Shown here: piece by piece, positions 21,536 through 40,480 of the stretch
How positions within the stretch are numbered: the first letter of the stretch is position 1
Layout: every line of letters begins with the position of its first letter
Notes under the pieces: generated by a model
Seen by the model: only the letters and a program-made list of their open reading frames with translations
Database searches by the model: none
What the model was told of the DNA's origin: nothing
Assembly (NCBI GenBank): GCA_013202525.1
Contig: JABMQS010000025.1
Location: forward strand, 1-44,341
Direction: 5' to 3'
DNA from: Candidatus Omnitrophota bacterium
GTDB lineage: Bacteria; Omnitrophota; Gorgyraeia; JABMRG01
DNA: 44,341 bases
Made by a program: the position numbers and the translations under genes

Positions 21536-22969
21536 ATGTTGCCCTGGTTTAAAAAAAGAGATGAGTACCTGGATCTTGTACTTGTGATGTGCCCTGGCTG
21601 GGGCGTGATTCAGGCCCCAGCAGCTATTGGTTACTTAAAGGGCTTTTTGGAGGCAAACAATATAACCTGCAGATGCTTTGACATAAATATCAAGTCGTAT
21701 AAGATGTTTGATGAAAAGAAGTACTGGGAGCTAAACTATCCAGACCACTTTGTCTTGCCTCATATGTTCGAGAGGGATATCCAGAAATTCCTTGCGCCAT
21801 TTATTGATATCTGGGCCAGGAGGATACTGGAGTTTAAGCCCAGGGCCGTAGGCCTGTCTTTATACATGTCCAGTATAAATGCGAGCGTGGCTCTTGCAAG
21901 GAGCCTTAAGAAGATGGAGCCGCAGATTGTGATTATTGGTGGAGGCCCTGAGGTGGACAGGATTAAGAGGGTTGCGCTCGATGGCATAAGGCCTATATCC
22001 CCTGCGAACAGGGATATATTCGATACCTTTGATGTCCTGGTCTCCGGCGAGGGGGAAGAGACCCTGCTTGAGCTTATGAGCAAGATCAAAAAGGGTGAGG
22101 ATTTCAGCACTACAACAGGCATTGTCTTAAAAAGAGATGAGCAGATCATCGCAAACAGCCCGCGTGAATTAATGAAGGATTTGGACCTTATACCCGAGCC
22201 CGATTATACAGATCTTGACCTGGCCGATTATACGGGAAAGGCCTTGCCTGTTGTGACCAGCAGAGGCTGTATAAACAGGTGCACCTTTTGCGCTGACAGC
22301 CCTTTATGGAAGAGGTACCGCTGCTTATCGCCTGAAAAGACTGTGAAGGATATGAGGAATCTGGCAAAGCGATACTCTGCAAGTTCTTTTGAGATCGTGG
22401 ATTCTATCTTTAACGGTGATATAGAGCGCCTTGAGAAGATATGCGATCTTATCATCGATTCAGGAATCCGCATGCAATGGTCAGCCAAGGCCATGCTGAG
22501 GAGAGAGATGGATTATAGGCTGCTTTCGAAGATGAAGAAGGCCGGGTGCTGCGCCCTGGCATACGGGGTTGAGAGCGGTTCACCCGGGGTCTTAAAAGAC
22601 ATGAGAAAATCCACTGATCTGGGTGCGATCAGGCGTATTATAAAGGATACCCACAGCGCAGGCATTGAACCGAACTGCTTTTTTATTATTGGTTACCCCA
22701 CTGAAACAGAGGAAGATTTCAAACAGACCTTGAGGTTCATCGAAGAGATGGGGGAGTTTATACATAGATTCGACCAGGTAACGTCTTGCCACATTGAGGA
22801 GGGTTCTTTTTTAGGTTTAAATACCGAAACCTATGGCATTACCTTTGATGATCAGGGGCACTGGTACTCTAAGGAGAGCACGCCTGAGATAAGGCAGGAG
22901 CGAATGGGGCGCTTTAGGGATCTGGCAAGAAAGCTTCATACGCACTATGAATGTGAAGTTCAGGCATAA
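21536..22969 (+). CDS. B12-binding-type radical SAM protein
   Basis: The N-terminal ~210 residues form a Rossmann-like cobalamin-binding domain (A-P-A-A-I-G-Y-L-K-G-F-L, I-V-I-I-G-G-G-P, S-G-E-G-E-E-T), without the D-x-H-x-x-G motif, as is usual in B12-rSAM enzymes. The radical SAM core follows, with C245, C249 and C252 in R-G-C-I-N-R-C-T-F-C. Characterised relatives are often C-methyltransferases, but others do other chemistry. It is most similar by eye to the next gene. The start ATG is preceded by AAGGAG (21521-21526). Confidence 0.87.
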   Translation: MLPWFKKRDEYLDLVLVMCPGWGVIQAPAAIGYLKGFLEANNITCRCFDINIKSYKMFDEKKYWELNYPDHFVLPHMFERDIQKFLAPFIDIWARRILEFKPRAVGLSLYMSSINASVALARSLKKMEPQIVIIGGGPEVDRIKRVALDGIRPISPANRDIFDTFDVLVSGEGEETLLELMSKIKKGEDFSTTTGIVLKRDEQIIANSPRELMKDLDLIPEPDYTDLDLADYTGKALPVVTSRGCINRCTFCADSPLWKRYRCLSPEKTVKDMRNLAKRYSASSFEIVDSIFNGDIERLEKICDLIIDSGIRMQWSAKAMLRREMDYRLLSKMKKAGCCALAYGVESGSPGVLKDMRKSTDLGAIRRIIKDTHSAGIEPNCFFIIGYPTETEEDFKQTLRFIEEMGEFIHRFDQVTSCHIEEGSFLGLNTETYGITFDDQGHWYSKESTPEIRQERMGRFRDLARKLHTHYECEVQA

Positions 22970-22983
22970 GGGGTTTGAGCAAA

Positions 22984-24417
22984 ATGAATATTATTTTAGT
23001 GCAGGCGCCATCATGGACAACGAGTACACCACCTTACAGTTTGGCGCTGCTTAAGGCGGTCTGTGAGGAGCAGGGGCATAAGGCCAGGTGCCTGGATCTG
23101 AATATAAGATTCTATAGATACCTCCTTGAGAAGGGGCAGGCAGGTATATATGATAATCCGACAAACTGGTATAGCGATGAGTACGTCAGCCATATTATTA
23201 GAGAACATGGCGATTTTATAGATCTCTGTGTTAGGGAGATCCTGCGGGCGACTTGCGGCCTTATAGGTTTTACGGTTACCGGCCTGAATAAGTTTTTTTC
23301 AGAGGAGATAGCAAAAAGAATAAAGACAAAGAATAAAGACATACTTATTATCTTTGGCGGCCCGCACTGCTTTAAGACTGAACTCGGAGAGGTATTATTA
23401 CACAATAACCCGGATGTAGATGCAGTCTGCTGCCTGGAGGGTGAAAAGGCATTACCCCGTATCTTAGAGATGGCAGTGAAGGAAGGAAGGATAGGCCCCT
23501 TTCCCGGCATAGCTTCAAGAGGAGAAGATGGCAGGGTCCTATCCTGCGAAGATGCAGATCTTATAGAGGATCTGGATTCCTTACCCTTTGCAGATTATTC
23601 AGATTTTGATATGCTGGAGTATGGTTTTAAGGAGCTGCCCATTTCAATAAGCAGGGGCTGTATCTACAGGTGTTCGTTCTGCAGTGAATCGCGAATATGG
23701 AAGAAGTACCGCTTTCGAAGCGCAGAGAATATATTTAAGGAAATAGAATTCCAGCTTACCAGGTACCCTTTTATTAAGTCGTTCTTCTTCAGCGGTTCCC
23801 TCATCAACGGTAATATAGAGGCCTTGTCCGGGCTGGCAGACCTGCTGATAGATAAGAAGGTCTCTATTTCCTGGGGCGGACAGGCATCTTTGAGAAAAGA
23901 GATGGATGAGGCTTTTATATCCAGGATGAGAAGGGCAGGGCTTAGCCATGTGAGCTATGGCCTTGAGAGCGCAAGCCCCGCGATATTGGAACGCATGAGC
24001 AAGGCCTTTACAGTAGAGGCAGCAGAGAGGATCATAAGGCAGACAAAGGGTGCCGGGATACGCACAGATGTCAATATAGTGGTTGGATATCCCGGGGAGA
24101 CCGAAGATGACATCGCCATGACAGCCGATTTTTTAAGCAGAAACAGGAGATTTATAGATGAGATATATTATCATCCACTGGTGATAATGCGCGGCTCATA
24201 CCTCTATATGCACAAGGATGAGCTTGGGATAAGGTTCGACAATGAGTTTAATCCTAACGACTGGTATTCCACAAATGAGGAGAACACGCTGGAGAAAAGA
24301 TTGGAAACGGTCGCATTCTTTAAGAGGCATATCGGTAGGAAGGGCAGGAGTTTCTTCACTTCTGCCCAATACCAGCAATTTATTAAAGAGCGGACAAGTA
24401 TCCGGCGAACGCCATGA
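22984..24417 (+). CDS. B12-binding-type radical SAM protein, paralog of upstream gene
   Basis: The N-terminal domain has the B12-type start (I-I-L-V-Q-A-P-S-W, P-P-Y-S-L-A-L-L-K) and I-F-G-G-P-H-C, and the radical SAM core carries C226, C230 and C233 in R-G-C-I-Y-R-C-S-F-C. Both this protein and its upstream neighbour share the R-G-C-I-x-R-C-x-F-C block, W-K-R/K-Y-R and a late N-D/S-W-Y-S-type segment, so they arose by duplication. A TTG at 22975 would add three residues; ATG 22984 is preferred. Its stop overlaps the next ATG. Substrate unknown. Confidence 0.86.
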   Translation: MNIILVQAPSWTTSTPPYSLALLKAVCEEQGHKARCLDLNIRFYRYLLEKGQAGIYDNPTNWYSDEYVSHIIREHGDFIDLCVREILRATCGLIGFTVTGLNKFFSEEIAKRIKTKNKDILIIFGGPHCFKTELGEVLLHNNPDVDAVCCLEGEKALPRILEMAVKEGRIGPFPGIASRGEDGRVLSCEDADLIEDLDSLPFADYSDFDMLEYGFKELPISISRGCIYRCSFCSESRIWKKYRFRSAENIFKEIEFQLTRYPFIKSFFFSGSLINGNIEALSGLADLLIDKKVSISWGGQASLRKEMDEAFISRMRRAGLSHVSYGLESASPAILERMSKAFTVEAAERIIRQTKGAGIRTDVNIVVGYPGETEDDIAMTADFLSRNRRFIDEIYYHPLVIMRGSYLYMHKDELGIRFDNEFNPNDWYSTNEENTLEKRLETVAFFKRHIGRKGRSFFTSAQYQQFIKERTSIRRTP

Positions 24418-25085
24418 TGAGGACCATCTTTAACAGGGCAGCCGCCCTTTTTATATGCGCTCTATTTTTAGCATCACTGATCCTTTACGCATATCGTATA
24501 CTGGGCCCGAAGGAGAGAGCGGCGGATTTCCTGGAGATGGAGGAGAGGAAGATGATAGAGAAGCACGGCCTGGCTGAAAAAAAGATATATTTCCCATCTT
24601 CCTATACGGTCTCTGATGGCGGCATGCTTGAAGCGGCAGATGGCAAAGGTGTAGAGATCAGCGGCAACGTCTTAAATATACACCTTAGCGATGATGAGAA
24701 GAAGCAGGTCCGGGGATTTCTTTTCTCACTGTCGTTAGTGATTAAGGACTGCTATGAAGATGGAGTCCTGCAGTTTCTTATAAGAGGCAATGGCAGGCCA
24801 CAGCAGAGACTGCGATTGCAGGTCTACCTTAAGGAGATAAACAGTGGCGAGGATGTAGCTGTGGCTTCTAAGTATGTCGTATCGGACCGAGCTTGGCATA
24901 CGGTATCTATACCCTTGGTGGAATTTTTGCCCGATGATAATGATTATGAAAACAGGGATTTTTCATGGGAGATCAGAGAGATCCTGTTTTCGGTAGAGCC
25001 CTCCGGGATGAAGAGGTCCTTAAGATTGTCCATTCGTAATATAAGGATAACTGACGGCAGAAAGGTCGTCTATAAACTCCTATAA
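24414..25085 (+). CDS. Membrane-anchored beta-rich protein of unknown function
   Basis: I do not recognise the family. The 223-residue protein has one hydrophobic segment at residues ~7-26, likely a signal anchor, and a soluble part that looks all-beta in residues ~75-220 (alternating hydrophobics, R-L-R-L-Q-V-Y-L, W-H-T-V-S-I-P-L, L-S-I-R-N-I-R-I). This pattern recalls galactose-binding-like or carbohydrate-binding beta-sandwiches, but that is a guess. Two adjacent ATGs (24414, 24417) are possible starts. It is followed 1 nt later by an SGNH hydrolase, and both would be periplasmic-side proteins. Confidence 0.7.
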   Translation: MMRTIFNRAAALFICALFLASLILYAYRILGPKERAADFLEMEERKMIEKHGLAEKKIYFPSSYTVSDGGMLEAADGKGVEISGNVLNIHLSDDEKKQVRGFLFSLSLVIKDCYEDGVLQFLIRGNGRPQQRLRLQVYLKEINSGEDVAVASKYVVSDRAWHTVSIPLVEFLPDDNDYENRDFSWEIREILFSVEPSGMKRSLRLSIRNIRITDGRKVVYKLL

Positions 25086-25086
25086 G

Positions 25087-25968
25087 ATGCTAAAGAGGAT
25101 CTTTATATATCTCATTTTTCTTCTTGTAATGACAGAGCTGATACTCAGGCTGTTTGCCTGTTTCTATGGACAGAGGGAGAAACTCGGAGAGCTTCCCAGC
25201 GACAGTTATAATATCATATGCCTGGGTGATTCTTTTACCTATGGCTGGGGTGTTGAGCCGGAGTTCACATACCCAAAGCAGTTGGAGAAGATGTTAAATG
25301 AACATAGGCCCTATAACAGAGACTATAAGGTCTTTAATCTGGGCATGCCAGGCTCTAATTCCAGCCAGGCCTTAAAGTATCTAAGGCATATGTTGATTTC
25401 AGGCATAAGGCCCGACATGGTGATAGTCTTGACAGGCGCAAATGATAGATGGAATTTTGCAGACAGTAATATCTATAGATTCATAACGCTAAATCCATTT
25501 TACAGGTTGATCACCAGGCTTAAGATATATCTGTCAGAAATGCGTACATACAAAATGATAGAACTGATCCTGCTCAACACAAGAGCTCTTTCGGAGGAGC
25601 CGGCAGTAGATCCCCTTGAACACGTCACAGGTGACAGGGCTATTGATCCAGAGGCCCTGGAAGAGATGTTCGATTACAATCTAAAGCAGATGCTTATCCT
25701 TGCAAAACAATATGGGGTCAAGATAATAATTCAGAGCTATCCAGATGAAGACCCTGATGGGATAGATGAGAAGAGGTCTATTGCAAAAGATTTTTCTGTG
25801 CCGGTTATCGACAATGATTCTCTTTTCCAGGAGAGGCTAAAGAGAGCTGAGATGAGTGACCTCTTCCTGTATGATAACTCTCACCCCAATGCAGAAGGAT
25901 ATAAGATTATCACAGAAAACCTGTATGAGGTTATTAAGAAGGAACTTAGGAAAGATGGATTATCTTAA
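25087..25968 (+). CDS. SGNH/GDSL-family hydrolase, membrane-anchored
   Basis: After an N-terminal membrane segment (residues ~5-25) the protein shows block I C-L-G-D-S-F-T (nucleophile S49), block III G-A-N-D-R and block V D-N-S-H-P (D263 and H266), the complete catalytic set of SGNH esterases. At 293 residues it has no further domain. Such enzymes add or remove O-acyl groups on glycans; no MBOAT acyl-donor partner is in the window, so an esterase role is as likely as a transferase role. It overlaps the next rSAM by 14 nt. Confidence 0.83.
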   Translation: MLKRIFIYLIFLLVMTELILRLFACFYGQREKLGELPSDSYNIICLGDSFTYGWGVEPEFTYPKQLEKMLNEHRPYNRDYKVFNLGMPGSNSSQALKYLRHMLISGIRPDMVIVLTGANDRWNFADSNIYRFITLNPFYRLITRLKIYLSEMRTYKMIELILLNTRALSEEPAVDPLEHVTGDRAIDPEALEEMFDYNLKQMLILAKQYGVKIIIQSYPDEDPDGIDEKRSIAKDFSVPVIDNDSLFQERLKRAEMSDLFLYDNSHPNAEGYKIITENLYEVIKKELRKDGLS

Positions 25969-27091
25969 GGAGTTTGAGACCAACCTTGCGTATCACTTTT
26001 CAGAGGTCCTGGAATATCTCTTTGCCAGGCCTTACTGGGTCTATGTGAGCCTGAGCCATAAGTGCACCTATAATTGCCAGATGTGCGGCGTTGTAAAGAT
26101 TTTAAAGGGTTATGAGCTTCCAAGGGAGACATTAGAAAAGGCACTGGATGAGATCGCCGGGTGGGACTGGGATTGTTCTGTGATACTGACAGGAGGCGAA
26201 CCCTTTTTAAGGGCAGATATCTTCGAATTGATAGATTATGCTGTAAGGAGAGGTATCCCGGTTGAGTCTGTATCCAACGGCTCATTGATAGATAAGGAGC
26301 TGGCTCACAAGATAATAAGCTCAGGATTAGAGAATATAGCCATCTCTCTGGATGGTGCAAAGGAAGCCACACATGATTCCATAAGGCAGAAGGGCAGTTT
26401 CTCACAGGCCATGAATGCCATAAGGAATCTTGTCCTGGCAAAAGAGGAGTTGGGCAGGGGTCCCCAGATATCTGTCTGGACCACAATAATGAAGGAGAAT
26501 GTCACCGAGTTGTACGATATTATACCGCTGGCGCGAGGATTAGGCATCGATTGTCTGGTATACCACCCTGTAGTCGTTGCCCAGGATGATATGCAGAATA
26601 CCTCGCCTGATGCCCCCTTCTGGATAAGGCAGGATAATCTTAAGCTGCTCAAGGGGCAGATAGATAAGATATGCGATTATCAGGACAAAAACGGCCTCGT
26701 GGCCTTTTTGCACGATCCTTACTTGTGGGTCAAGCATTTCGAAGGTGCCCTCACCAGGCAAGATTGGAAGTGCAATCCCTTTGTATTCATAAATATAGGC
26801 CCTGATGGAGAGGTAAGAAGTTGTGGTTCAAGCTTCGGCAATATAGGAAAGCGTTCGCTCGATGACTGCCTTCATACCAAAGAGGCGCATAAGGCACGTT
26901 GCCTAATGAAGAAGTGCCAAAAACCGTGTCTTCAGACATGTTGGGCACATCCCGTCTCCGATTCCCCGATTTTTATCGCGGATGCCCTTATCAAAAGGCT
27001 GAAAGAGGATAAGGTAGGTACTGAGAAAAAAAGAGAGATCATAGAGAAGGCAATAGCCGCGTTAGAAAGATATGAGGATATAGCCAAGTAA
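25955..27091 (+). CDS. Radical SAM protein with SPASM-like C-terminus
   Basis: C37, C41 and C44 form the [4Fe-4S] motif and T-G-G-E-P-F-L-R the SAM-binding loop. The C-terminal region has W-K-C-N-P, a G-x-V-R-S-C-G strand and the K-C-Q-K-P-C-L-Q-T-C tail shared with the rSAMs at 16860 and 18761. An upstream in-frame ATG (25856) lies deep inside the SGNH gene; ATG 25955 has AGGAA (25948-25952) just before it and gives the expected N-terminus (378 residues). Function unknown, presumably glycan modification from context. Confidence 0.85.
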   Translation: MDYLKEFETNLAYHFSEVLEYLFARPYWVYVSLSHKCTYNCQMCGVVKILKGYELPRETLEKALDEIAGWDWDCSVILTGGEPFLRADIFELIDYAVRRGIPVESVSNGSLIDKELAHKIISSGLENIAISLDGAKEATHDSIRQKGSFSQAMNAIRNLVLAKEELGRGPQISVWTTIMKENVTELYDIIPLARGLGIDCLVYHPVVVAQDDMQNTSPDAPFWIRQDNLKLLKGQIDKICDYQDKNGLVAFLHDPYLWVKHFEGALTRQDWKCNPFVFINIGPDGEVRSCGSSFGNIGKRSLDDCLHTKEAHKARCLMKKCQKPCLQTCWAHPVSDSPIFIADALIKRLKEDKVGTEKKREIIEKAIAALERYEDIAK

Positions 27092-27092: not shown

Positions 27093-28319
27093 ATGGCCAG
27101 ATTAAAAGAGATAATATTTTGCGTAACGAACAGGTGCAACCTGAGATGCAGGATGTGTGACATCCCTCATAATAAGACAGAGGAGCTAAGCACAGACCGG
27201 TTAAAACAGGTTATAACGGACGCGGCAAGGCTCGGGTTCTACACCTTTGTCTTTTCCGGGGGAGAGCCTTTATTAAGGGATGATATATTTGAGCTCATAT
27301 CCCATGCAAAAGCAAGCCATATGACAGCCTGCCTGACCTCCAACGGGCACAAAATAGATGATCAGGTTGCTGGCAGGCTTTTTGAAGCAGGGGTCGATGT
27401 TGTCAATATATCCATAGACGGGCCGCAGCAGATTCATGATCATCTCAGGGGCAAAGGTGCCTTCAAGACAGCGATTGAGGCATTAGAAAATTTGAAGAAA
27501 CATAAGATCGAGGCTACAGTAGCTACCATGGTATGCAGGGATAATTACGAAAACATGCCTTATATAGTAGAGTTCTCCAAATTATACGGGGTTACAACTA
27601 TAATGTTTCAGCCCTTTAGCAGGCTCTTCGTGAGCGATAAATCCAGGGAAAAGGAGTTCTTTATAAACAAAAAGGATCTGGATAATGCTGCCGGTATCAT
27701 CGAAGAGGTCATTGAACGTGCAGGAAGAGAGCATATCTCTATCAACCCTGAAGGTTATTTGAGGCGGATACCTTCTTATCTGAGCGGCGAGCCGGTTGGC
27801 TTAAGGCATGGCTGCGAAGGCATCTATGATACGTGTTCAATACGCTCGAAAGGCGACATTTTTCCGTGTTGGGTTATAAATGATTCCGATAAACTGATAG
27901 GTAATGTGGGAAAGACCAGACTCTTTGACTTATGGGATTCAGAGCGACATAAGCGCATAAAGAGGATGGTGGAAGAGGGTGGCTGCCCTGGCTGCATGAT
28001 GAGTTGTTATGATGAGGTCTTCGGGCCCAATGAGCAAAAAAAGACCCATCTGAATAAGATCAGCAAGTTGAAAAGTCCCAGGGCCTACAGCAGACTGATA
28101 AACAGGCTCATACAGGATACCAGGGGCATTATGGCGCATATAGGAAACAGGTATAGGTTCTATAGATCCTATAGAGGTTCATTAAAGGCCGTTTTTAAGA
28201 GGCTTGTAAAGAGGTTTCAGAGAAGCGTCCTGCCTAAGCGCTCGCTGGGCAAAGGGGAGATAAGCAAGGCGCTCCAGGAGATCAAGATAGCGAAGAAGAG
28301 GCTTGAGAGAGAACTGTAA
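27093..28319 (+). CDS. Radical SAM protein, MoaA/PqqE-like
   Basis: The cluster motif lies close to the N-terminus (C15, C19, C22 in R-C-N-L-R-C-R-M-C), followed by S-G-G-E-P-L-L-R-D-D. A SPASM-like region has C-E-G-I-Y-D-T-C, F-P-C-W and C-P-G-C-M-M-S-C. The C-terminal ~80 residues are basic and hydrophobic-poor, with many Arg/Lys, possibly for membrane or glycan contact. It starts 1 nt after the preceding rSAM, so the pair is probably co-translated. The substrate is unknown. Confidence 0.85.
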   Translation: MARLKEIIFCVTNRCNLRCRMCDIPHNKTEELSTDRLKQVITDAARLGFYTFVFSGGEPLLRDDIFELISHAKASHMTACLTSNGHKIDDQVAGRLFEAGVDVVNISIDGPQQIHDHLRGKGAFKTAIEALENLKKHKIEATVATMVCRDNYENMPYIVEFSKLYGVTTIMFQPFSRLFVSDKSREKEFFINKKDLDNAAGIIEEVIERAGREHISINPEGYLRRIPSYLSGEPVGLRHGCEGIYDTCSIRSKGDIFPCWVINDSDKLIGNVGKTRLFDLWDSERHKRIKRMVEEGGCPGCMMSCYDEVFGPNEQKKTHLNKISKLKSPRAYSRLINRLIQDTRGIMAHIGNRYRFYRSYRGSLKAVFKRLVKRFQRSVLPKRSLGKGEISKALQEIKIAKKRLEREL

Positions 28320-28329
28320 GGTTAAGGAT

Positions 28330-29601
28330 ATGAAGATAGGGCTCTATATTCCATGTTTTAACGCAGAGAAGCACATAGGGGCTACGCTTAAAGGTGTTTT
28401 TAAGCAGCGTCTTATGCCGGATGAGGTTGTTGTTGTGGATGACGCCTCGACAGATGATACTGCCAGGATCGTCTCACGTTATCCTGTGCGGCTGGTAGGG
28501 CATAAAAGAAATAAGGGCCTGGCAGCCGCAAGGAATACGGCCATAAAGAGTATAGACGCAGACCTTATTGCATCTCTGGATGCGGATTGTGTGCCTGAGC
28601 CCGATTGGCTTAGCCTGCTGTCGAAAAGAGTCAGAGCTGGCAAGGCATCAGGCGCCGGAGGAAGGCTGGCCGAGGCGCATACGACTACTGTGTTCGATCT
28701 ATGGCGCTCTACGCATATGAGGCAATATTGGCATAAGAAGCAGACTCAGCCTCCGTTTTTATTTGGATCTAATGCCCTTTTTTGCAAAGAGGCCCTGATG
28801 AAGGCAGGTCTATATAAAGAAGACTTAAGAAACAACTATGAGGATGTTGATATATGTCAGCGCCTCAAGAAGAAGGGTTGTAAGCTTTCATATGAACCCA
28901 AGGCATTGGCACACCATCAGAGGCGTGATAGTGCCTACTCTGTACTGAGTGGCTACTGGAATTGGCATTTTCCCTATTATCAGAAGAAGGGGTACTACTC
29001 GAGCGAGAAGAGACTTAAGGCAAAGATCAAGGATAGCATAGGTTTGGCAAACCGCTATATGACTGAGGATATCAAGGCAAGAAGATACCGCTTGGTGTAT
29101 ATGGACTTTTTGCTGGGGTTTCACCACGTGGTCAAGGATTTTGAATACTATCTCTATCAGAAAAATGGCGCAAGGCCAGACGCCACCTCGCTCTCCTGCT
29201 GGCTTTCGTTGCTGGATCTGACATTTTCTTATCATTATTTCCGCGGCAAGCAGCTAACGAGCCTTGCAAAAAAAGACCTTTCATTTCAGCAGAACTTCTT
29301 TGCTATGAATCTGGTTTTAGGAAAGGTTGTCAGAGACCATTTTAGCAGGAGCCTGCACAAGAGGCTTTTTAGAGATATCCTGATGACCACCTATAAGATA
29401 AAGGATTCTAAACTTGTAGATAAACTCCATAATCTTGTTACGCTGCATCCGGATTGGAACGATCTTCGAAAAAAGAATCACCCCAATCTTCGCGAATATT
29501 TCCTGGATGCTGTATATCTGAATTATCACAAGTGGCTCAATAGTTTGGCAGCCTCTTACCCCAAGGCCATCAGCATGATAGAGGCAGCTGCAAAGAGATA
29601 A
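28330..29601 (+). CDS. GT2-family glycosyltransferase with C-terminal helical domain
   Basis: Residues ~1-230 form a GT-A fold: I-G-L-Y-I-P-C-F-N-A-E, V-V-V-D-D-A-S-T-D-D, S-L-D-A-D-C (metal-binding acids), N-N-Y-E-D-V-D (catalytic acid region). Residues ~230-423 look helical and I do not recognise them. In-frame TTG 28303 would overlap the previous gene by 17 nt; ATG 28330 fits the GT2 start and follows AAGG at 28318-28321. It acts at the cytosolic side on a lipid-linked or soluble acceptor; the sugar is unknown. Confidence 0.86.
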   Translation: MKIGLYIPCFNAEKHIGATLKGVFKQRLMPDEVVVVDDASTDDTARIVSRYPVRLVGHKRNKGLAAARNTAIKSIDADLIASLDADCVPEPDWLSLLSKRVRAGKASGAGGRLAEAHTTTVFDLWRSTHMRQYWHKKQTQPPFLFGSNALFCKEALMKAGLYKEDLRNNYEDVDICQRLKKKGCKLSYEPKALAHHQRRDSAYSVLSGYWNWHFPYYQKKGYYSSEKRLKAKIKDSIGLANRYMTEDIKARRYRLVYMDFLLGFHHVVKDFEYYLYQKNGARPDATSLSCWLSLLDLTFSYHYFRGKQLTSLAKKDLSFQQNFFAMNLVLGKVVRDHFSRSLHKRLFRDILMTTYKIKDSKLVDKLHNLVTLHPDWNDLRKKNHPNLREYFLDAVYLNYHKWLNSLAASYPKAISMIEAAAKR

Positions 29602-29635
29602 GGCTATTTGCGAAAGTGGTGGGGGGTTTAATTCG

Positions 29636-29690
29636 CCCCTGCCGCTTTGCTTCGCATCCTTCGGATACAGGCAAAGCGAAGCAGCAGGGG
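29636..29690. repeat. Large imperfect hairpin before the coiled-coil protein gene
   Basis: CCCCTGCCGCTTTGCTTCGC (29636-29655) pairs, with a few mismatches, with GCAAAGCGAAGCAGCAGGGG (29671-29690); ATCC/GGAT close the top. It lies in the 113-bp gap that is the longest in the 9780-43769 cluster, 10 nt before the ribosome binding site AAGGAGG (29701-29707). A stretch of four As follows it rather than Ts, so on the + strand it is not a standard terminator. It could be a dispersed repeat or an mRNA processing site. Confidence 0.65.
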
Positions 29691-31800: not shown

Positions 31801-32632
31801 CATAGATTATATAAGCCACTGCCTGCGTTCTCTCTGCCTGCAGGATATTCGCGGGGTGGAGGTAATCGTCTCGGATAACGGTTCAGACGACGGAACGCTT
31901 GAGCTTATCAGAAGAGACTACCCGCAGGTTCTCCTGATTGAAAACAACCAGAATATCGGCTCATGTAAGGCAAGGAACCGGGCAATAGAGGCAGCTCAGG
32001 GTGAGTGGATATTGACACTGGATTGTGACGCGGTCTTAGGTAAAGACTTTATCGCAAAGGCGCTGAAGGCCATAGATACCCTCACCCCTGATACCGGAAT
32101 AGTGCAGCCGAAGGTATTAAGCCCAGGCTCTGAGACCATCTACTCCTGTGGTATACGGCTATCCTGGTCAAGGAGGTTCTATGATATAGGCAGCGGTGCA
32201 AAGAACAACGGCCATTTTAGCAAATCTATGCCTGTATTTGGCGCCTGCTCTGCCGTCGCGCTCTACAGGCGAAGTATGCTGGAGGATCTGAAAGAGGAGA
32301 CAGGATATTTTGATGAGAGGTTCTTTTTTCTAGTTGAAGATGTGGATCTGGCCTGGCGCGCTCAGAAGAAAGGCTGGAAAGGAATCTTTCTGCCTGAGCT
32401 CTTATGCTGTCATTCCGGAGACAGCTCAAGAAGCAGCAGGGCCTTCAGGCAGTACCTATGCTTTAGAAACCGCTATTATTCCATTGCAAAGAACGATTCG
32501 TTAAAGAATTATTTTATAAAGGTCGCGCCCGCGCTCTTCTATGATCTGCCAAGGATCGCCTACTTATTTGCTACAAATCCGTACATGAAAGATAAGGTCA
32601 AAAGGATGCCCTACGGGGCAGTGCAGGTATGA
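31769..32632 (+). CDS. GT2-family glycosyltransferase
   Basis: The protein (287 residues) has L-S-V-I-V-L-T-R-N, V-S-D-N-G-S-D-D-G-T, T-L-D-C-D-A-V-L and F-L-V-E-D-V-D-L-A-W-R, the donor- and metal-binding motifs of rhamnosyltransferase-like GT2 enzymes. Possible starts are GTG 31742, ATG 31748 and TTG 31769; the TTG has AAGGAG at 31757-31762 with 6-nt spacing and gives the usual GT2 N-terminus, so I choose it. It overlaps the preceding rSAM by 32 nt. It overlaps the GT9 gene as ATGA. Confidence 0.84.
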   Translation: MLSVIVLTRNSIDYISHCLRSLCLQDIRGVEVIVSDNGSDDGTLELIRRDYPQVLLIENNQNIGSCKARNRAIEAAQGEWILTLDCDAVLGKDFIAKALKAIDTLTPDTGIVQPKVLSPGSETIYSCGIRLSWSRRFYDIGSGAKNNGHFSKSMPVFGACSAVALYRRSMLEDLKEETGYFDERFFFLVEDVDLAWRAQKKGWKGIFLPELLCCHSGDSSRSSRAFRQYLCFRNRYYSIAKNDSLKNYFIKVAPALFYDLPRIAYLFATNPYMKDKVKRMPYGAVQV

Positions 32633-33831
32633 ATATAACACTGGCGAAAAGGATAGATTTTTTTGCGGGGATACCTATCTGCGCGCTCCTTTCGTTATGC
32701 AATATGATATGCAGGCCATTATCTTCAAGGCGCGTCTGCAATGATAAGCCAAAAAAGGTCCTCTTTCTGGGATTTTCAGAGATCGGGTCTGCTATCCTTG
32801 CTTCTCAAGCGATAGAAAAGGCAAGGAAAAGATTCCCCGGCGCAGATATCTTCTTTTGGTCTTTCGGGGAGACGGCGCAGATCGTCCGGCTGATCGGGCT
32901 GGTACCCGATGATAATATCATTACAATGCGTAGCAGCAGTATCCCCGCGTTATTTACGGATTGCCTGAAGAATATCAGAAGGATCAGGAATGAGCAGATA
33001 GATACAGTTGTGGATATGGAACTCTTTTCGCGGTTTTCAAGTATCTTAAGCTATGTGACAGGCGCTGTCAGGATAGCGGGTTTTTACAGATACAAGTCAG
33101 AGGGGCTTTACAGGGGTAATCTGCACACCCATAAGGTTACATATAACCCATATCTTCATATGAGTGAAAACTTTATCGCATTGGTTGATTCCCTCGATGT
33201 TGCAAAGAATGAAAGGCCTTTACTCAAGAGCCATGTGCAGACAGAAAGAACCCGCTTACCCAAGATAACCAGAACCACAGAAGAGATAGGCCGGATGTGG
33301 CAAAGGTTGAAAAAGGCCAACAGCCCTATTAAAGATAAGATGAGAACCGTTATTGTAAATTACGGCTTTGATGACAAGCTTATTGTGAGAAGATGGCCTG
33401 TCGAATACTATACAGAGCTGATACGCCGCCTTCTTGCGCAAGAGGATGTCCTTGTTCTCTTGATAGGCTCGGGCAAAAGGCCGGCATGTTCGATCCCTAT
33501 CTCCCATGAACGCTGCCTGGATCTTATCGGAAAGACTACTATGGCTGAGCTTTTGACATTGTGCAGTATGTCACAAGTACTTATAAGCCATGACAGCGGC
33601 CTTGTCCATATAGCCTCTCTTACCGACATCCCCATAGTAGCCCTTTTTGGGCCAGAGACCCCGCTCTTGTACGGCCCGCTTACGCAGACAAAAAAGGTCT
33701 TCTATAAGAAATTTGCCTGCAGTCCATGCCTGAGCGCCTATAATCATAGAAGCACAGTATGCAGGGACAACATGTGCCTAAAGGCCATAACCGTTGATGA
33801 GATATATGATGAGATTTGCACTCATATTTAA
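32629..33831 (+). CDS. GT9-family (heptosyltransferase-like) glycosyltransferase
   Basis: The two-domain GT-B protein (400 residues) contains V-L-F-L-G-F-S-E-I-G near the N-terminus and S-H-D-S-G-L-V-H-I-A-S-L with V-A-L-F-G-P-E-T-P near the C-terminus, the ADP-heptose-binding region of GT9 enzymes. GT9 enzymes usually build LPS inner core, but family members also use other sugars. It is ~50 residues longer than E. coli WaaC. A heptose pathway is not encoded in the window. It is translationally coupled to both neighbours. Confidence 0.85.
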   Translation: MNITLAKRIDFFAGIPICALLSLCNMICRPLSSRRVCNDKPKKVLFLGFSEIGSAILASQAIEKARKRFPGADIFFWSFGETAQIVRLIGLVPDDNIITMRSSSIPALFTDCLKNIRRIRNEQIDTVVDMELFSRFSSILSYVTGAVRIAGFYRYKSEGLYRGNLHTHKVTYNPYLHMSENFIALVDSLDVAKNERPLLKSHVQTERTRLPKITRTTEEIGRMWQRLKKANSPIKDKMRTVIVNYGFDDKLIVRRWPVEYYTELIRRLLAQEDVLVLLIGSGKRPACSIPISHERCLDLIGKTTMAELLTLCSMSQVLISHDSGLVHIASLTDIPIVALFGPETPLLYGPLTQTKKVFYKKFACSPCLSAYNHRSTVCRDNMCLKAITVDEIYDEICTHI

Positions 33832-35305
33832 TCCATTCAAATATAAGGTCCACGAGGAGAACCTGAGGGTCGTCCAGAAGTACTTTGGCCTGTTTCCCCC
33901 GTTGAGCCTGGCCTGGGTGGCCGCTATTGCTGAAAAAGCCGGCCACGAGGTAATAATTGTGGATGCAAGGACCCTCAACCTGTCAAAACAGCAGACACTG
34001 GAGAGGCTGAAGAGATTCAATCCCGACATCTTAGGGTTCATGATGACGACATATATGTTTCCCGATACCATGGATTGGATCAGATTCTTAAAGAAGCATC
34101 TCGATCTGCCCGTAGTTATAGGCGGCTATAACCTGAGGACTTATCCGCATGAATCTGTTTCGCATCCTGAGATAGATTTCGGTATTCACGAACATGCTTA
34201 TTATACTATACCCGCGCTCTTGGGGGAGATTGAGAGCGGGAATCCGTCATTTGATAAGGTTCCGGGCCTTGTCTACAAGAAGGCCGGCAAAACCATTGTT
34301 ACACCGCATCCCCAGCAAATAGATTTTGATAAGTTCCCGAACCCCGCGCGCCATCTCCTGCCGAATGAACTCTATGCAGAGTTTCCTACAGAGAGAAGGA
34401 ATTTTACTGTTATGGTCACATCCTTGGGCTGCCCCTACGCATGCAGCTTCTGTGAAGCAGGAAGGACCCAATATAATCCCCGCTCGCCTGAGACGGTAAT
34501 AAAGGAGATCGAAGAGTGCTACCACCGTTATAATATCAGAGAGATAGATATCTTCGATTATGAGTTTACTGTTGTAAGGGAACGCGTGATGGAGATATGC
34601 AGGCTTTTGCAGGAGAAGGGGATGGATATCGAGTGGGCCTGCCGCTCGCGTGTCGATACAGTAGACAAGGAATTGCTTTCTGAGATGCAAAAGGCAGGCT
34701 GCAGAAGGATATACTTTGGCCTGGAGTCCGGCGCTCCTGGTGTATTGAAGGGTATTAACAAAGGCATATCTATCAGCCAGGTAGAGCAGGCGGTGGGCGC
34801 CTGTCGCGATTTGGGCATAAGGTCTCTGGGCTTCTTTTTGATAGGCGCCCCGCATGATACAGAAGAGACGGTCAAGAGCACTGTGGCGTTTGCCAAGAGA
34901 CTCAATTTAGACTATGTGCAATTTTCAAAATGTCTTGCCAAACCATTGACTCCCTTGTGGCAGGAGATGGTCAAGTCTACAAACAGGGATTATTGGCGTG
35001 ATTGGATCCTGGGCAGAGAGAAGGACAGAGAGCTTCCACGGCCATGGACCTCACTTACCAATCAACAGATCAACGAGCTTACAAGATGGGCGTATATCTC
35101 ATATCACACGCGGCCCTCATATATCTTTGAACATATAAAGAGGCTGAGGTCCTTTCAGGAGTTGGGAAGAAAGGCGCGCGCCTTTTTAGACATGGCCTTC
35201 AGGCAGGAGAAGGCCGCTTTAGAGGATAAGGGCTTTGAGGCCTTCAACGAGAACAGCCCTGATAAGATAGAGAAGCTCAAGAAGGAATATACTGCCCGAG
35301 GATGA
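33809..35305 (+). CDS. B12-binding-type radical SAM protein
   Basis: The N-terminal domain (A-L-I-F-N-P-F, F-P-P-L-S-L-A-W-V-A-A-I-A-E-K-A-G, V-V-I-G-G-Y) is cobalamin-binding-like, and C208, C212 and C215 (L-G-C-P-Y-A-C-S-F-C) form the cluster site. The protein has 498 residues, with a C-terminal helical region (~375-498) longer than in its neighbours. In-frame TTG 33794 and ATGs 33797 and 33806 are alternatives; I take ATG 33809, which overlaps the GT9 end by 23 nt. The P-L-S-L-A-W-V-A-A start resembles BchE/HpnJ-like proteins. Substrate unknown. Confidence 0.85.
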   Translation: MRFALIFNPFKYKVHEENLRVVQKYFGLFPPLSLAWVAAIAEKAGHEVIIVDARTLNLSKQQTLERLKRFNPDILGFMMTTYMFPDTMDWIRFLKKHLDLPVVIGGYNLRTYPHESVSHPEIDFGIHEHAYYTIPALLGEIESGNPSFDKVPGLVYKKAGKTIVTPHPQQIDFDKFPNPARHLLPNELYAEFPTERRNFTVMVTSLGCPYACSFCEAGRTQYNPRSPETVIKEIEECYHRYNIREIDIFDYEFTVVRERVMEICRLLQEKGMDIEWACRSRVDTVDKELLSEMQKAGCRRIYFGLESGAPGVLKGINKGISISQVEQAVGACRDLGIRSLGFFLIGAPHDTEETVKSTVAFAKRLNLDYVQFSKCLAKPLTPLWQEMVKSTNRDYWRDWILGREKDRELPRPWTSLTNQQINELTRWAYISYHTRPSYIFEHIKRLRSFQELGRKARAFLDMAFRQEKAALEDKGFEAFNENSPDKIEKLKKEYTARG

Positions 35306-36567
35306 CTATGTTTGGCTTTCGCGCTTTACCAAGACACAGCATAAACCTTTCTGCACCGGTTTTGCGCAGGGTATGTGATCTGATATTTAGCGGAAAGGTT
35401 CTTAAGGGTGTCGATGTAGAGGCCTTTCAGGAGGCCTTTGCAGGATATGTCGGTAGTAATCACGCCCTCTCTGTTTACTCGGCAAGGCTCGGTCTATACC
35501 TATCCATAAAGGCGCTTGGCCTCAGGGAAGGGGATGAGGTTATAGTTGCGGCCTACAACTTTCACATAGTACCCGTTCTCATAAAGGCCATGGGAATTAA
35601 ACCGGTCTTTGTAGATATTGATCCAGATACCTATAATATAGATCCATCCTTGATCGAAGCCAAGGTTTCAGAAAAGACAAAAGCGATCCTGGCCACGCAT
35701 CTTTTTGGCCAGAGCTGCCGCATGGATAAGATCATGGAGGTGGCGCGCAAACACAACCTTAAGGTCATCGAGGACTGTGCGCACTCCTGCGGCGCTGAAT
35801 ACAAAGGTCAGAAAGTCGGCACCTTCGGTGATCTGGGGGTCTTCAGCTTTGCTATGGGGAAGACCATAACATGTTTTGGCGGAGGCATGATAGTTTCAGG
35901 CAATAAGGAGCTGGCAGAGAAGATAGCCGGCTATATGAAAGATTATGCATATCCGGCCAAGAGTGCCCTGCTTGCAAAGATCCTTAAGATATCCATCTTA
36001 TTTGCGGTTACACATCCTCTCATATATCCTTACATAGGATATCCCCTATCTTTGGCCTGTTCACTGCTGGGCATAGATGTATTTGACAGATTTTCTGAGG
36101 AGCTTGTAGAAGAGTGGAAAGATCTGCCTAAGGGCCTGTTTAAGAGATTCACAAACCTGCAGGCCGCTGTAGGTACAGAACAGCTAAAGGGCATCGATGC
36201 CAGGATAGCATCAGCCAGGGAAAATGCGTTTATGTTAAGCAAAGGTCTTGGAGGAGAGGCTGAGCTTTCATTGCCTAAAGCAGCAGACGAAGCAAGGCAT
36301 ATCTATTTTTCGTATCGCCTGAGGCTGGATCGTGAGCCCGGGCCTTTCAGGAAGGCATTGTTAAGGAAGGGCATAGATACCAAACCGGACGATATCTCCG
36401 TCTGCCCTGAGATAGGCTTTTTTCAAGACGAAGACGCCAGCCCTTACAGTGCAGCCTTAGGCATAAAGAGAAAGTCCTTTGGCCTTCCATGCAGCCACTT
36501 TTTAGAAGAGGCTGATATCCGCTACATGATAGAGAAGATAAGAGAGGTCAACCTTATATCCTCATGA
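35302..36567 (+). CDS. DegT/DnrJ/EryC1-family aminotransferase with hydrophobic insert
   Basis: PLP-enzyme motifs are clear: V-I-E-D-C-A-H-S (D158, pyridine ring contact), F-S-F-A-M-G-K-T (K187, the Schiff-base lysine) and the preceding T-F-G-D-L-G-V. Family members transfer an amino group to a keto-sugar nucleotide. At 421 residues it is longer than the usual ~370-390, because residues ~221-262 (35962-36087) form a strongly hydrophobic insert. This may place the enzyme at the membrane. It overlaps the genes on both sides by 4 nt (ATGA). Confidence 0.86.
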   Translation: MTMFGFRALPRHSINLSAPVLRRVCDLIFSGKVLKGVDVEAFQEAFAGYVGSNHALSVYSARLGLYLSIKALGLREGDEVIVAAYNFHIVPVLIKAMGIKPVFVDIDPDTYNIDPSLIEAKVSEKTKAILATHLFGQSCRMDKIMEVARKHNLKVIEDCAHSCGAEYKGQKVGTFGDLGVFSFAMGKTITCFGGGMIVSGNKELAEKIAGYMKDYAYPAKSALLAKILKISILFAVTHPLIYPYIGYPLSLACSLLGIDVFDRFSEELVEEWKDLPKGLFKRFTNLQAAVGTEQLKGIDARIASARENAFMLSKGLGGEAELSLPKAADEARHIYFSYRLRLDREPGPFRKALLRKGIDTKPDDISVCPEIGFFQDEDASPYSAALGIKRKSFGLPCSHFLEEADIRYMIEKIREVNLISS

Positions 36568-37553
36568 GCATGAGACATCTTTTCCAGGGGGCCAACGCAG
36601 TAACGAGAGAGATCTTTCTAAAAAGAAGGATCCCACTGGCTGTCAGCTGGTCACTGACCCATCGCTGTAATCAGAAGTGCCTCTACTGCGGGATCTCGAA
36701 TCACAGTTGCGCGGAGCTGGATACGCAGAAGATACTGAATATGATAGAAGATCTTCGCAACATGGGTATGCGATGGGTATCTTTTACAGGGGGTGAGCCG
36801 CTATTGAGAGAAGACCTTGGGCAGATAGCAGCTTTTTCAAAGGCCAGAGGCCTGTATGTAAGCATCAGCACAAATGGCAGGCTGGTAAGCGAAAGATTGA
36901 ATGATCTGCTGTGTGTTGACAGGGTCAAGTTGAGCCTGGATGGGCCGCGTGATATTCAGGACACAATAAAGGGTGAGGGTTCTTTTGACAAGGTGATGGA
37001 GGCGATAGAATTGTGCAAAAAAAACAAGATACCACTATGCCTTGAGTGCGTGCTTTCCAGGTATAATATCAAATCGATCGATTACCTGCTCAGGTTTGCT
37101 TCAGAGCGCGGCCTGAAGGTTATCTTCCAGCCAGCCACTGAAAAGATTCTTTGGCAGGAGGAGCTCAATCCTCTGGCAGCCCCTAAAGATAGTTATAGGG
37201 GCGCAATAAGCCGCCTGATGAATGAGAAGAGAAGAGGCGCGCCTGTATATAATTCATTATCAGGTTTAAGACACCTTTACAGCTGGCCAGAGTCTAAGAG
37301 TATCAGATGCAGCGCAGGTCGCTTGAGCTTTGATATCAAGCCAGATGGTAGGATATTGGCATGCGACAGGATCCAGAGAAACTTCCCAGGCGCTAAGCCT
37401 TCAGGCGTCAGGGATGCTGTAAATAACATACCGCGCCCTTTAGATTGCAAGGATTGCTGGCGCAGTTCGCAGGTAGAATTTAATCTGTTATCTTCATTAA
37501 ATCCAGAGGCCATCTTTAGCTTTTTGGCCTTAGGCAGAAATGGCAGCGAGTGA
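36564..37553 (+). CDS. Radical SAM protein, MoaA/PqqE-like
   Basis: C35, C39 and C42 (H-R-C-N-Q-K-C-L-Y-C) and T-G-G-E-P-L-L-R-E-D define the core. The C-terminal part has I-R-C-S-A-G, G-R-I-L-A-C-D-R and C-K-D-C-W, a reduced SPASM/twitch-like set. At 329 residues it is the shortest of the rSAM set. It overlaps the aminotransferase by 4 nt and precedes three more rSAM genes without a break. Substrate unknown. Confidence 0.85.
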   Translation: MSMRHLFQGANAVTREIFLKRRIPLAVSWSLTHRCNQKCLYCGISNHSCAELDTQKILNMIEDLRNMGMRWVSFTGGEPLLREDLGQIAAFSKARGLYVSISTNGRLVSERLNDLLCVDRVKLSLDGPRDIQDTIKGEGSFDKVMEAIELCKKNKIPLCLECVLSRYNIKSIDYLLRFASERGLKVIFQPATEKILWQEELNPLAAPKDSYRGAISRLMNEKRRGAPVYNSLSGLRHLYSWPESKSIRCSAGRLSFDIKPDGRILACDRIQRNFPGAKPSGVRDAVNNIPRPLDCKDCWRSSQVEFNLLSSLNPEAIFSFLALGRNGSE

Positions 37554-37556
37554 GCT

Positions 37557-38987
37557 ATGATCAAGATCGCATTATTGAGGGCACCGCTTATATCTGAAGA
37601 CAAAACGATCCATGCAAGGCAGCTCCATCCCCCTTTTGACCTTAAATATATCCAGTCGATTCTTGGTGCAGAGGGTTGCCATATCAGTTTGACCGACTGT
37701 TGGGTAGAACCTCATACCTTAAAGGGTGTGGCAGCGAGCCTGCTTGATTACGCCCCTGAGATGCTTGTGATCTCAGCCACAAATTATAATTATGACTGGT
37801 CCAGAGAGCTTGCATCTATCCTGAAGTCAGAAGGTAAGGATATGATCATTGTGGCCATAGGAGCAGATGCGAGCAGTTCACCTAAGAGATACAGATATGA
37901 GGGTTCACCCTTTGATGTCTGCATAAGGGGTGAACCGGAAGAAGAGATACTCAGTTTTGTAAAAGGCCTTAAGGCAGGCAGGCCTGCCTGCCGGACAGGC
38001 GGGGATGCACATGGGTTGATAGATGGGACGACAGACCTATGCATTGTAAAGGACCTGGACAGTTTGCCTCCGCCGCAATATACGAAGGAAGAGATCAGGA
38101 GGTATAATTTTCTCTACCCGCTGCCATTACGAAAGAAGATAAGGTGGGGCTTTCTTATATCTTCAAGGGGTTGTTGGCACAAATGCAGCTTTTGTTCCTG
38201 CTACATACGCAAGAGTTTCGGAAAGACCGTTAGGTTCAGAAAACCGGAGCATGTCGCCGACGAGATAGAGGGCCTGAAGAAAATTGGTGTTAACATGGTA
38301 TCTTTCGAGGATGACGACTTTACCTTGAGCAGAAAGCACCTGCGGTCTGTATGCAGTGAGATAAAGAGAAGGGGCATCGATATAAACTGGTCTTGTCACG
38401 CACGTCTGGATGAGCTCGATTCCGAGATATTGGGTGAGATGAAGGAGGCAGGATGTGCGCTTCTGCTTATAGGCATGGAGTCCGGGTCACTGAGGATGCA
38501 CAGCTTGTTGGAGAAATTTGCAAGACCTGAGCTGGTACTTAAGAAGGGCCATGAGATACTCAAGGAGGCCAGGAGGCATAATATATCCACGCATCTTCTT
38601 TTTATGCTCGGCCTCCCCACAGAAGGCTCGGAAGATATTGCAGAGAGCATGGAGGCGGCAAAGAGGTTGTCTTCAGATACCATTCAGATGCATTTTTTTA
38701 CGCCATATCCGGACTCAAGGCTCTATTCCCAATATAAGGACAGGATTGCGCCTGAGCTTGATTCTAAGATGTACCATTACAGCTATCCCGCCCTTAATAT
38801 GAGCAACCTTTCTGATGAGGCCCTGAGAGAGAAATACACTGAATTCTACAGAAACCATTACCTGAATGCTGGATATATGATCAGGCATGCGAAGAGATAC
38901 GGCCTCTTTTACCTCTTTAACCCATCTGTGCTTAAAGGGCTCTTTTCTGTAATGGTAGATGTTACAAAACGTGAGCATAAAGGATGA
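37557..38987 (+). CDS. B12-binding-type radical SAM protein with in-frame palindrome
   Basis: The N-terminal domain (I-A-L-L-R-A-P, H-P-P-F-D-L-K-Y-I-Q) fits cobalamin-binding, with I-R-G-E-P-E-E-E as the conserved acidic turn. C206, C210 and C213 (R-G-C-W-H-K-C-S-F-C) bind the radical cluster. Residues 139-150 (K-A-G-R-P-A-C-R-T-G-G-D) are encoded by a perfect DNA palindrome plus a flank and look like an insertion in a surface loop. It starts 3 nt after the previous gene and overlaps the next by 4 nt. Confidence 0.86.
   Translation: MIKIALLRAPLISEDKTIHARQLHPPFDLKYIQSILGAEGCHISLTDCWVEPHTLKGVAASLLDYAPEMLVISATNYNYDWSRELASILKSEGKDMIIVAIGADASSSPKRYRYEGSPFDVCIRGEPEEEILSFVKGLKAGRPACRTGGDAHGLIDGTTDLCIVKDLDSLPPPQYTKEEIRRYNFLYPLPLRKKIRWGFLISSRGCWHKCSFCSCYIRKSFGKTVRFRKPEHVADEIEGLKKIGVNMVSFEDDDFTLSRKHLRSVCSEIKRRGIDINWSCHARLDELDSEILGEMKEAGCALLLIGMESGSLRMHSLLEKFARPELVLKKGHEILKEARRHNISTHLLFMLGLPTEGSEDIAESMEAAKRLSSDTIQMHFFTPYPDSRLYSQYKDRIAPELDSKMYHYSYPALNMSNLSDEALREKYTEFYRNHYLNAGYMIRHAKRYGLFYLFNPSVLKGLFSVMVDVTKREHKG
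37973..37992. repeat. Perfect 20-bp palindrome inside a coding sequence
   Basis: The segment GGCAGGCAGGCCTGCCTGCC is its own reverse complement and is followed by GGACAGGCGGGG, which partly repeats it. It is read in frame in the B12-rSAM gene at 37557. Its base composition is far richer in G+C than the surroundings. It looks like an intragenic copy of a dispersed palindromic element. Confidence 0.85.
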
Positions 38988-40480
38988 AGGTAGTATTTGT
39001 ACATTTCGGCAGAGAGAATATGGGTATCGAATACCTCTCGGCTGCATTAAGAAGGGATGGTCACGAGGTTGCGCTTGTACACGACCCCGGCCTCTTCTCC
39101 ACAGAGGACAATGTCTTCCACTCTCCCTTTCTTGAAAAGATATTCAGGACAGAAAATATTGCAGACAGGATCGTCAGCAAAAAGCCGGACCTGGTTGCAT
39201 TTTCTGCATACACGACTACATATAGGCGCCTGTTGGCCATAGCAGAGGACTTAAAAAAAAGAAGCTCTGTTCCTGTAATCTTTGGCGGTATGCATCCTAC
39301 GCTGGTTCCCGAAAGGGTCATATCCTCGCCTTTTATAGATTATGTGCATATAGGGGAGGGGGAGGCTACTTTTCCAGCTTTTGTCGCCTCTCTATCCGAT
39401 GGCAGGAGCCTGGAAGATACTAATAACATATTCTATAAAAGAAACGGCAGCATATTAAGGACCCCGCTATTTGCGCCGATCAAAGACCTTGATAGCATTC
39501 CATTTCCTGATAAGGAATTATTCGCGGGCTCGGTCCGCTACAAAGACGATTATATGATCCTGGCCAGCAGAGGATGCCACAACAGCTGCAGTTACTGTTG
39601 TGAGAGTTTTTTAAACAGGCTTTATGGGAATGGTTATTTCAGGAGGAGGTCTGTGACCTCTGTTATAGATGAACTCTGCTTCATGAAAGAGAGATATAAT
39701 TTCAGGGAAGTGATGTTCTTTGACAGCATATTGTTTACTGATAAGAAGTGGCTTAAGGAGATGCTCTCTTTATACAGGCGCAAGGTAGGCGTCCCGTTCA
39801 GATGCACCGGGCATGTCGATTTATTAGATTGCGAGACCGCAGGATTATTGAAGGATGCCGGTTGCTACACCATCGATTTTGGTGTGCAGAGTTTCAACCA
39901 GGGGTTTCGCAAGGAGGCCCTGAACCGCAGAGAGGACAACGCGCAGATAAGGAAGGCGTTTGATGTTTGCGATGGCATGAGATTAAGATATGATGTAGAC
40001 CTTATGTTCGGCTTGCCGGAGTCATCGGTGGAAGATTATAGATTGCCTCTAAGCTTTATGCAGGACAACAAGTACCTCAATCGTCTTAAGTGCTACAATC
40101 TTTCATTTTACCCGCGGCTTTCTATTACGCAAAATGCCAGAGAACGGGGTTTATTGAATGATAAGAATATAGAGGATATAGAAGAGGGCAGGATAGGAGA
40201 TTGGTTTCATGTAGATTCGATAAAAGAACCGGCACAGAAGAGGCAGAAGGAGGCTTTTCAGAAGCTCTATAAACTCTATCCGGCTATGCCCGGTTTCTTG
40301 CGTAGATTTGTGGCAAAGAGAGATCTTCACCGGGCCTTTCGTTTTATACCGTATGGGCTTGTTATCTTTGTGCAGTTTCTGATAGGCCTCTTTAAGAGGG
40401 ATTATCGTTTCAGGATATATATAAATAATTATCTGCACCATACCAGGATGCGCTTTTCTTCAAGTAAAGGTAAAAGGTGA
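38984..40480 (+). CDS. B12-binding-type radical SAM protein
   Basis: The cobalamin-binding-like domain has M-G-I-E-Y-L-S-A-A-L, V-I-F-G-G-M-H-P and H-I-G-E-G-E, the last two highly typical of B12-rSAM proteins. C198, C202 and C205 (R-G-C-H-N-S-C-S-Y-C) form the cluster site, followed directly by C206. The C-terminal ~90 residues are basic and contain a hydrophobic stretch (L-V-I-F-V-Q-F-L-I-G-L-F, near 460-471), perhaps a membrane contact. It overlaps the upstream gene as ATGA and stops 1 nt before the next gene. Substrate unknown. Confidence 0.86.
   Translation: MKVVFVHFGRENMGIEYLSAALRRDGHEVALVHDPGLFSTEDNVFHSPFLEKIFRTENIADRIVSKKPDLVAFSAYTTTYRRLLAIAEDLKKRSSVPVIFGGMHPTLVPERVISSPFIDYVHIGEGEATFPAFVASLSDGRSLEDTNNIFYKRNGSILRTPLFAPIKDLDSIPFPDKELFAGSVRYKDDYMILASRGCHNSCSYCCESFLNRLYGNGYFRRRSVTSVIDELCFMKERYNFREVMFFDSILFTDKKWLKEMLSLYRRKVGVPFRCTGHVDLLDCETAGLLKDAGCYTIDFGVQSFNQGFRKEALNRREDNAQIRKAFDVCDGMRLRYDVDLMFGLPESSVEDYRLPLSFMQDNKYLNRLKCYNLSFYPRLSITQNARERGLLNDKNIEDIEEGRIGDWFHVDSIKEPAQKRQKEAFQKLYKLYPAMPGFLRRFVAKRDLHRAFRFIPYGLVIFVQFLIGLFKRDYRFRIYINNYLHHTRMRFSSSKGKR

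Follow-up and report, generated by a model that had tools for sequence, protein, structure and literature searches.

The twelve radical SAM (rSAM) genes described here, which lie within 25 kb of a single glycan assembly and export cluster of an Omnitrophota bacterium, point to an unusual and widespread modification of sugars rather than to simple repeated methylation. The window, meaning the whole stretch of DNA that was analysed, is the entire 44,341-bp contig C6 of a 1.64-Mb genome that is 93% complete. The initial annotation had counted six B12-type rSAM genes there (B1-B6), and this count stands, but it was incomplete: the same cluster holds six further rSAM genes without the B12-type domain (S1-S6). 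The modular rSAM glycan system that emerges is more interesting than the serial methylation first proposed, and we interpret it as a means of editing the carbons of a glycan while it is lipid-linked and not yet exported.

The cluster and its relatives

The first 9.7 kb of the window hold ribosomal protein, secY, adk, map and rpoA genes. From 9,780 to 43,769 every recognised gene lies on the + strand; many of the genes overlap, and no gap between them exceeds 54 bp. This stretch begins with a conserved-core member, an FAD amine-oxidase-fold oxidoreductase (9780-11093; Pfam Amino_oxidase) that lies beside WecA/Wzm/Wzt in relatives; in many clusters of Omnitrophota a protein of this kind is kept as the neighbour of WecA and Wzm. 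It continues with a GT4-type glycosyltransferase (11110-12276; Glycos_transf_1), a WecA-like polyprenyl-phosphate sugar-1-phosphate transferase as the initiator (12294-13304; Glycos_transf_4, with the NCBIfam WecA profile below cut-off), a Wzm-like ABC-2 permease (13359-14138; ABC2_membrane) and a Wzt-like ABC ATPase (14140-16866).

The rSAM genes follow, with assignments based on Pfam. S1 (16860-18764) encodes a GT2 glycosyltransferase-radical SAM fusion of 634 aa and S2 (18719-19918) a radical SAM/SPASM protein, after which come a GT-C-type membrane glycosyltransferase (PMT_2; 19911-21533), B1 (21536-22969), B2 (22984-24417), a protein with an N-terminal membrane segment and no Pfam match (24414-25085), a GDSL-family esterase/acyltransferase-like protein (25087-25968), the radical SAM/SPASM proteins S3 (25955-27091) and S4 (27093-28319), a GT2 glycosyltransferase (28303-29601), a membrane/coiled-coil protein that is syntenic beside B3 in relatives (29616-30440), and B3 itself (30442-31800). 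Downstream lie a second GT2 glycosyltransferase (31754-32632), a GT9, heptosyltransferase-like glycosyltransferase (32629-33831; NCBIfam score below cut-off), B4 (33809-35305), a DegT/PseC-type sugar aminotransferase (35302-36567; NCBIfam PseC below cut-off), S5 (36564-37553), in which a SPASM match was not detected, B5 (37557-38987), B6 (38984-40480), the radical SAM/SPASM protein S6 (40482-41570), a further GT2 glycosyltransferase (41557-42534) and an O-antigen ligase/polymerase-like membrane protein (42531-43769; Wzy_C). The components of ABC-dependent glycan export, namely a permease, an ATPase with a C-terminal extension, an initiating sugar transferase and glycosyltransferases, are all in the cluster, and the glycan setting of the rSAM genes is well supported. 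An Rfam scan of the window returned neither riboswitches nor other Rfam families. Directly after the ligase gene we observed a pilin-like protein with an N-terminal methylation-type segment (43837-44265); as the contig ends after this gene, the cluster may continue beyond it.

The B3 family was searched for in 84,980 species genomes, where 357 relatives were identified, and the best 80 of these 357 were analysed. These 80 derive mostly from Omnitrophota, the other hosts being Auribacterota, CSSED10-310, Calescamantes, Deltaproteobacteria and Woesearchaeota or other DPANN archaea. Locus L052 preserves the order S1-S2-B1-B2-S3-S4-GT2-coiled coil-B3-GT2, into which additional genes are interspersed in the window, and the block from GT9 to S6 is not common to the loci seen. 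Gene order thus makes B1, B2, B3 and S1-S4 look like a conserved core, and B4-B6, DegT, S5 and S6 look like a variable part.

Several further loci deserve mention in their own right. Contig C68 of the host genome carries a second DegT/S5/B5 group, where S5, B5 and two DegT genes (locus L039, G000:C68:38001-58000, at 6076-16925) are paralogous to 35302-38987 of the window and may form a sugar-synthesis cassette. Also in the host genome, locus L038 (G000:C70:1-17000) combines a Wzt-like gene with several neighbouring radical SAM matches, of which two are of B12-binding type. B3-type proteins of Woesearchaeota and other DPANN archaea were seen at six loci (L065, L086, L088, L101, L110 and L127), with Wzm/Wzt-like genes nearby in L101 and L110, and a B3-related radical SAM gene lies in a glycan cluster on a Lawsonia intracellularis plasmid (L132, 6837-8300).

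The six B12-type proteins

The six B12-type open reading frames begin where the initial annotation had placed them, and the architecture that it described, an N-terminal Rossmann-like domain with an rSAM core, was borne out by a Pfam B12-binding match followed by a Radical_SAM match in 6/6, the B12-binding scores of B1 (31.9) and B3 (28.5) lying below the cut-off of 32.1. CxxxCxxC occurs in all six proteins. D-x-H-x-x-G is, as had been claimed, absent from every one of their Rossmann domains; a single chance DTHSAG at residue 371 of B1 falls within the rSAM barrel. Of 15 B12-binding matches in the genome, six lie in this cluster, and under random placement any six of 15 would fall within 19 kb with p ~1e-5. 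The cluster enzymes may use cobalamin; the genome contains a single MetH-type cap domain, located where a contig ends, and gave no match to CobS or to class II ribonucleotide reductase.

Judged from their sequences the six are not one family, and the divergence that had been noted among them is reflected in an AU test that rejects the six as one clade. None reaches the curated cut-off of a characterised family among the NCBIfam profiles, and no protein was placed within a clade acting on tRNA, hopanoids or chlorophyll, the placement that had been named as counting against the methylation proposal. Our tree has 41 rows, among which GenK, GenD1 and Fom3 do not figure; its deep placements are uncertain, since the rows taken from the PDB are only fragments and a number of branches are long. 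In it B1 and B2 form an Omnitrophota clade beside RiPP peptide C-methylases with moderate support (93/84), and rSAM_ocin_1 is the best-scoring profile for both (163 and 141 bits, against a cut-off of 281.85 bits). B4 and B5 have HpnJ as their best profile and each pairs in the tree with paralogues from its own genome; B6, the most divergent, stands apart, and its top profile, a P-methylase, is nearly tied with others. On sequence B4-B6 are unplaced among the characterised families of the 41-row tree.

B1 and B2 had been called clear duplicates. They are indeed paralogues, but the description was overstated, the two sharing 31.5% identity over 95% and belonging to different subclades. B1 has orthologues in other Omnitrophota at 55-56% identity, which together with the separate subclades indicates that the pair is old; a recent tandem duplication is ruled out by the orthologues of each gene.

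The core protein B3 belongs to a family of 54 members with 50 invariant columns in the alignment. Its closest counterparts are HpnJ by profile and AprD4 by predicted structure, neither of which is a methylase. HpnJ (TIGR03471) scores higher on the window B3 than any other NCBIfam profile, at 265 bits against a cut-off of 577.6 bits, and matches 54/54 family members; the AprD4 family profile (NF033070) scores 117 bits against a cut-off of 500 bits and a ladderane-type profile 132 bits. The predicted B3 model (pLDDT 95.3) superposes on the B12-binding rSAM class, and its best PDB match is AprD4 with paromamine (E 8.5e-26, TM 0.80), which outranks the methylases TsrM, TokK and CysS, and OxsB. The B3 sequence profile likewise ranks AprD4 first among solved structures. 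The tree joins B3 to a radical SAM protein of an Eleftheria glycan cluster (99/93), and the wider group, with moderate support (93/82), also contains HpnJ and AprD4; further B3 relatives are located in glycan clusters. HpnJ converts BHT glucosamine to BHT cyclitol ether (PMC12583986), and the known non-methylating members of the B12-type rSAM class carry out ring formation or rearrangement (PMC13142503).

These placements bear on the proposal that the six act as cobalamin-dependent C-methyltransferases on a single glycan, which they would methylate several times in succession; of this proposal the glycan setting has held up better than the chemistry. Most characterised enzymes of the class are methylases (PMC13142503), the sugar C-methylases GenD1 and GenK exist (PMC5461906), and both the grouping of B1 and B2 with RiPP C-methylases and the nearly tied top profile of B6 are in keeping with methylation. 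On the other hand, a methylase cut-off is reached by 0/6, B3 is nearest to sugar-acting non-methylases, holding B3 together with TokK/CysS is marginally rejected by the AU test (p 0.043), and HpnJ is also the best profile for B4 and B5. We consider repeated methylation unlikely, and prefer carbon editing of the glycan.

Domain fusions and the exporter module

Fusions tie the rSAM proteins to glycosyltransferases. S1, itself such a fusion, has collinear orthologues at 47-53% identity at five loci of other Omnitrophota (L037, L052, L058, L060 and L120). In L062 and L070 (Auribacterota) and in L105 (Nitrospirae), two phyla other than that of the window, B3 forms one polypeptide with a homologue (34-41%) of the GT2 glycosyltransferase at 28303, and both domain orders occur. 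Other polypeptides are longer still: L020 has three B2-like domains in one polypeptide of 1,539 aa and three SPASM domains in another of 1,428 aa, L030 joins B3 to three SPASM-type domains in 1,917 aa, and L035 has B3, module, SPASM and module in 1,394 aa, the module being that of the Wzt protein described below. B3-type open reading frames, which were counted as such and not as independent events, some loci being present twice, are fused in 46/87 cases and alone in 41/87, the window B3 being among the lone ones; in the Omnitrophota survey 42/55 strong B3 matches lie in open frames of >650 aa. From these fusions the rSAM enzymes of the cluster would very probably act on a glycan.

The extension of the Wzt-like ATPase comprises 670 residues, made of three copies (residues 233-457, 465-682 and 687-906) of one module of ~222 aa with 27-32% mutual identity, and in relatives up to four copies occur. 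The module was found 166 times in 89 open reading frames, behind the ABC ATPase, alone, or fused to B3, B1 and SPASM proteins. None of 64 copies gave a Pfam match, known Wzt C-terminal families included, and a search of PDB sequences returned no relatives of note. Its predicted fold is all beta (pLDDT 93.5), and Foldseek likened it to the supersandwich domains of oligoglucan phosphorylase, galactosaminidase, beta-galactosidase, OpgD/OpgG and galactose mutarotase; these matches are weak (E ~1e-5 to 1e-3, TM 0.5-0.7) and mostly to carbohydrate-acting proteins, with YidC and a viral capsid protein among the non-carbohydrate ones. The predicted fold makes it likely that the module binds sugar. In known systems, what the carbohydrate-binding domain of Wzt recognises is a chemical cap at the end of the chain (PMC9445017). 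Among 285 sampled Omnitrophota genomes, B3 and the module occur together in 53, B3 only in 2, the module only in 9 and neither in 221, making 55/285 B3-positive, with one partial match counted, and 62/285 module-positive (Fisher p 1.6e-45, kinship ignored).

Alternatively, the enzymes might modify a lipid, be it a hopanoid, a tetraether-like lipid or the polyprenyl carrier, and not the sugar part. HpnJ is named for hopanoid synthesis and the ladderane-type profile does score on B3, but HpnJ acts on the sugar head group (PMC12583986) and the fusions are to glycosyltransferases and the Wzt module, and we regard a lipid substrate as improbable. A hopanoid pathway as such was rejected, with no match to a squalene-hopene cyclase in the genome. 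Maturation of a RiPP or of a mycofactocin-like glycosylated peptide cofactor, as might be read from the SPASM domains, the rSAM_ocin_1/ApyD profile similarity of B1 and B2 and the best match of the GT2 at 28303 to MftF, is very improbable in view of the same fusions, of the Wzm/Wzt, WecA and ligase-like genes in the cluster and of operon gaps that leave no room for an undetected precursor gene.

A proposed pathway and known systems

We propose instead that a polyprenyl-linked surface glycan is built in the cytoplasm and exported via the Wzm/Wzt ABC transporter, and that, while the chain is being assembled and before it is exported, the twelve radical SAM proteins would edit carbons in the glycan itself or in the lipid-linked intermediates that lead to it. 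The GT2 at 28303 would add a sugar, and B3 would edit that sugar directly afterwards or together with the GT2, most likely by an HpnJ- or AprD4-like reaction on the sugar ring (ring contraction or rearrangement, or dehydration) and not by methylation; the remaining radical SAM proteins may make further edits. The all-beta module might bind the glycan and so hold the chain for the rSAM enzymes, and might also serve the exporter in recognising the product of the editing, in the way that the carbohydrate-binding domains of known Wzt proteins recognise modified chain ends. The variable part (B4-B6, DegT, S5 and S6) would set the individual glycan structure.

As a whole we judge editing of a lipid-linked glycan before export to be the probable explanation. 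The S1 fusion, the fusions of B3 with GT2, the module fusions, the co-occurrence of B3 and module and the likeness to AprD4 and HpnJ support it. Against it stand the B3 scores far below the HpnJ and AprD4 cut-offs, a motif spacing that differs from that of AprD4, the weak fold match of the module and the 41/87 lone B3 frames. SPASM proteins often act on peptides, and this too counts against glycan editing. More tentatively, we speculate that the system could be an assembly line, in which rSAM tailoring stations in fusions of up to ~1,900 aa are each anchored to the growing lipid-linked glycan through the exporter's binding module, yielding carbocyclic, ring-contracted or otherwise carbon-edited sugars in Omnitrophota, other candidate phyla and DPANN archaea.

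Chemical changes to the surface glycans of bacteria are commonly attributed to methyl-, acetyl- and phosphotransferases and to nucleotide-sugar enzymes. If the proposal is correct, a phylum-wide complement of a dozen radical enzymes per exported glycan would place unusual carbon skeletons on the cell surface, and the sugars of an assembly line, should it exist, are not known from bacterial surface polysaccharides. B3, highly conserved across its 54 sequences, and the module that Pfam lacks are concrete, testable proteins, and B3 would add to the few B12-fold radical SAM enzymes that do not methylate. Omnitrophota are described as ultra-small and as having host-dependent traits (PMC10066038); the word 'radical' is absent from that survey, and in the papers searched, all of them under open licences, we found no description of a modular rSAM glycan system.

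Four known systems invite comparison. HpnJ shares the B12-binding and rSAM architecture, is the NCBIfam profile that B3, B4 and B5 match best, partners a glycosyltransferase and acts on a lipid-linked aminosugar without being a methylase; it differs in that B3 scores less than half its cut-off, in that the host genome lacks a hopanoid cyclase, and in that B3 is tied to Wzm/Wzt and to a GT2 with no similarity to HpnI. AprD4, a radical SAM 1,2-diol dehydratase, has a sugar as its substrate and provides the best structure for the B3 model, but has CxxxCxxxC where B3 has CxxxCxxC, and its profile score on B3 is far under the cut-off. AprD4 requires the reductase AprD3 (PMC5461906), and a general family scan recognised no AprD3-type reductase in the operon. 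The cobalamin rSAM sugar C-methylases GenK and GenD1 are alike in being B12-binding rSAM enzymes that act on sugars (PMC5461906). Lastly, ABC-transporter-dependent O-antigen systems share the WecA-like initiator, Wzm, a Wzt with a C-terminal extension, glycosyltransferases and a ligase-like protein. In the window the Wzt extension is a repeated module without a Pfam match, the chain would be tailored by rSAM enzymes where those systems use ordinary cap methylases or kinases, and in relatives one and the same module is common to Wzt and to the tailoring enzymes.
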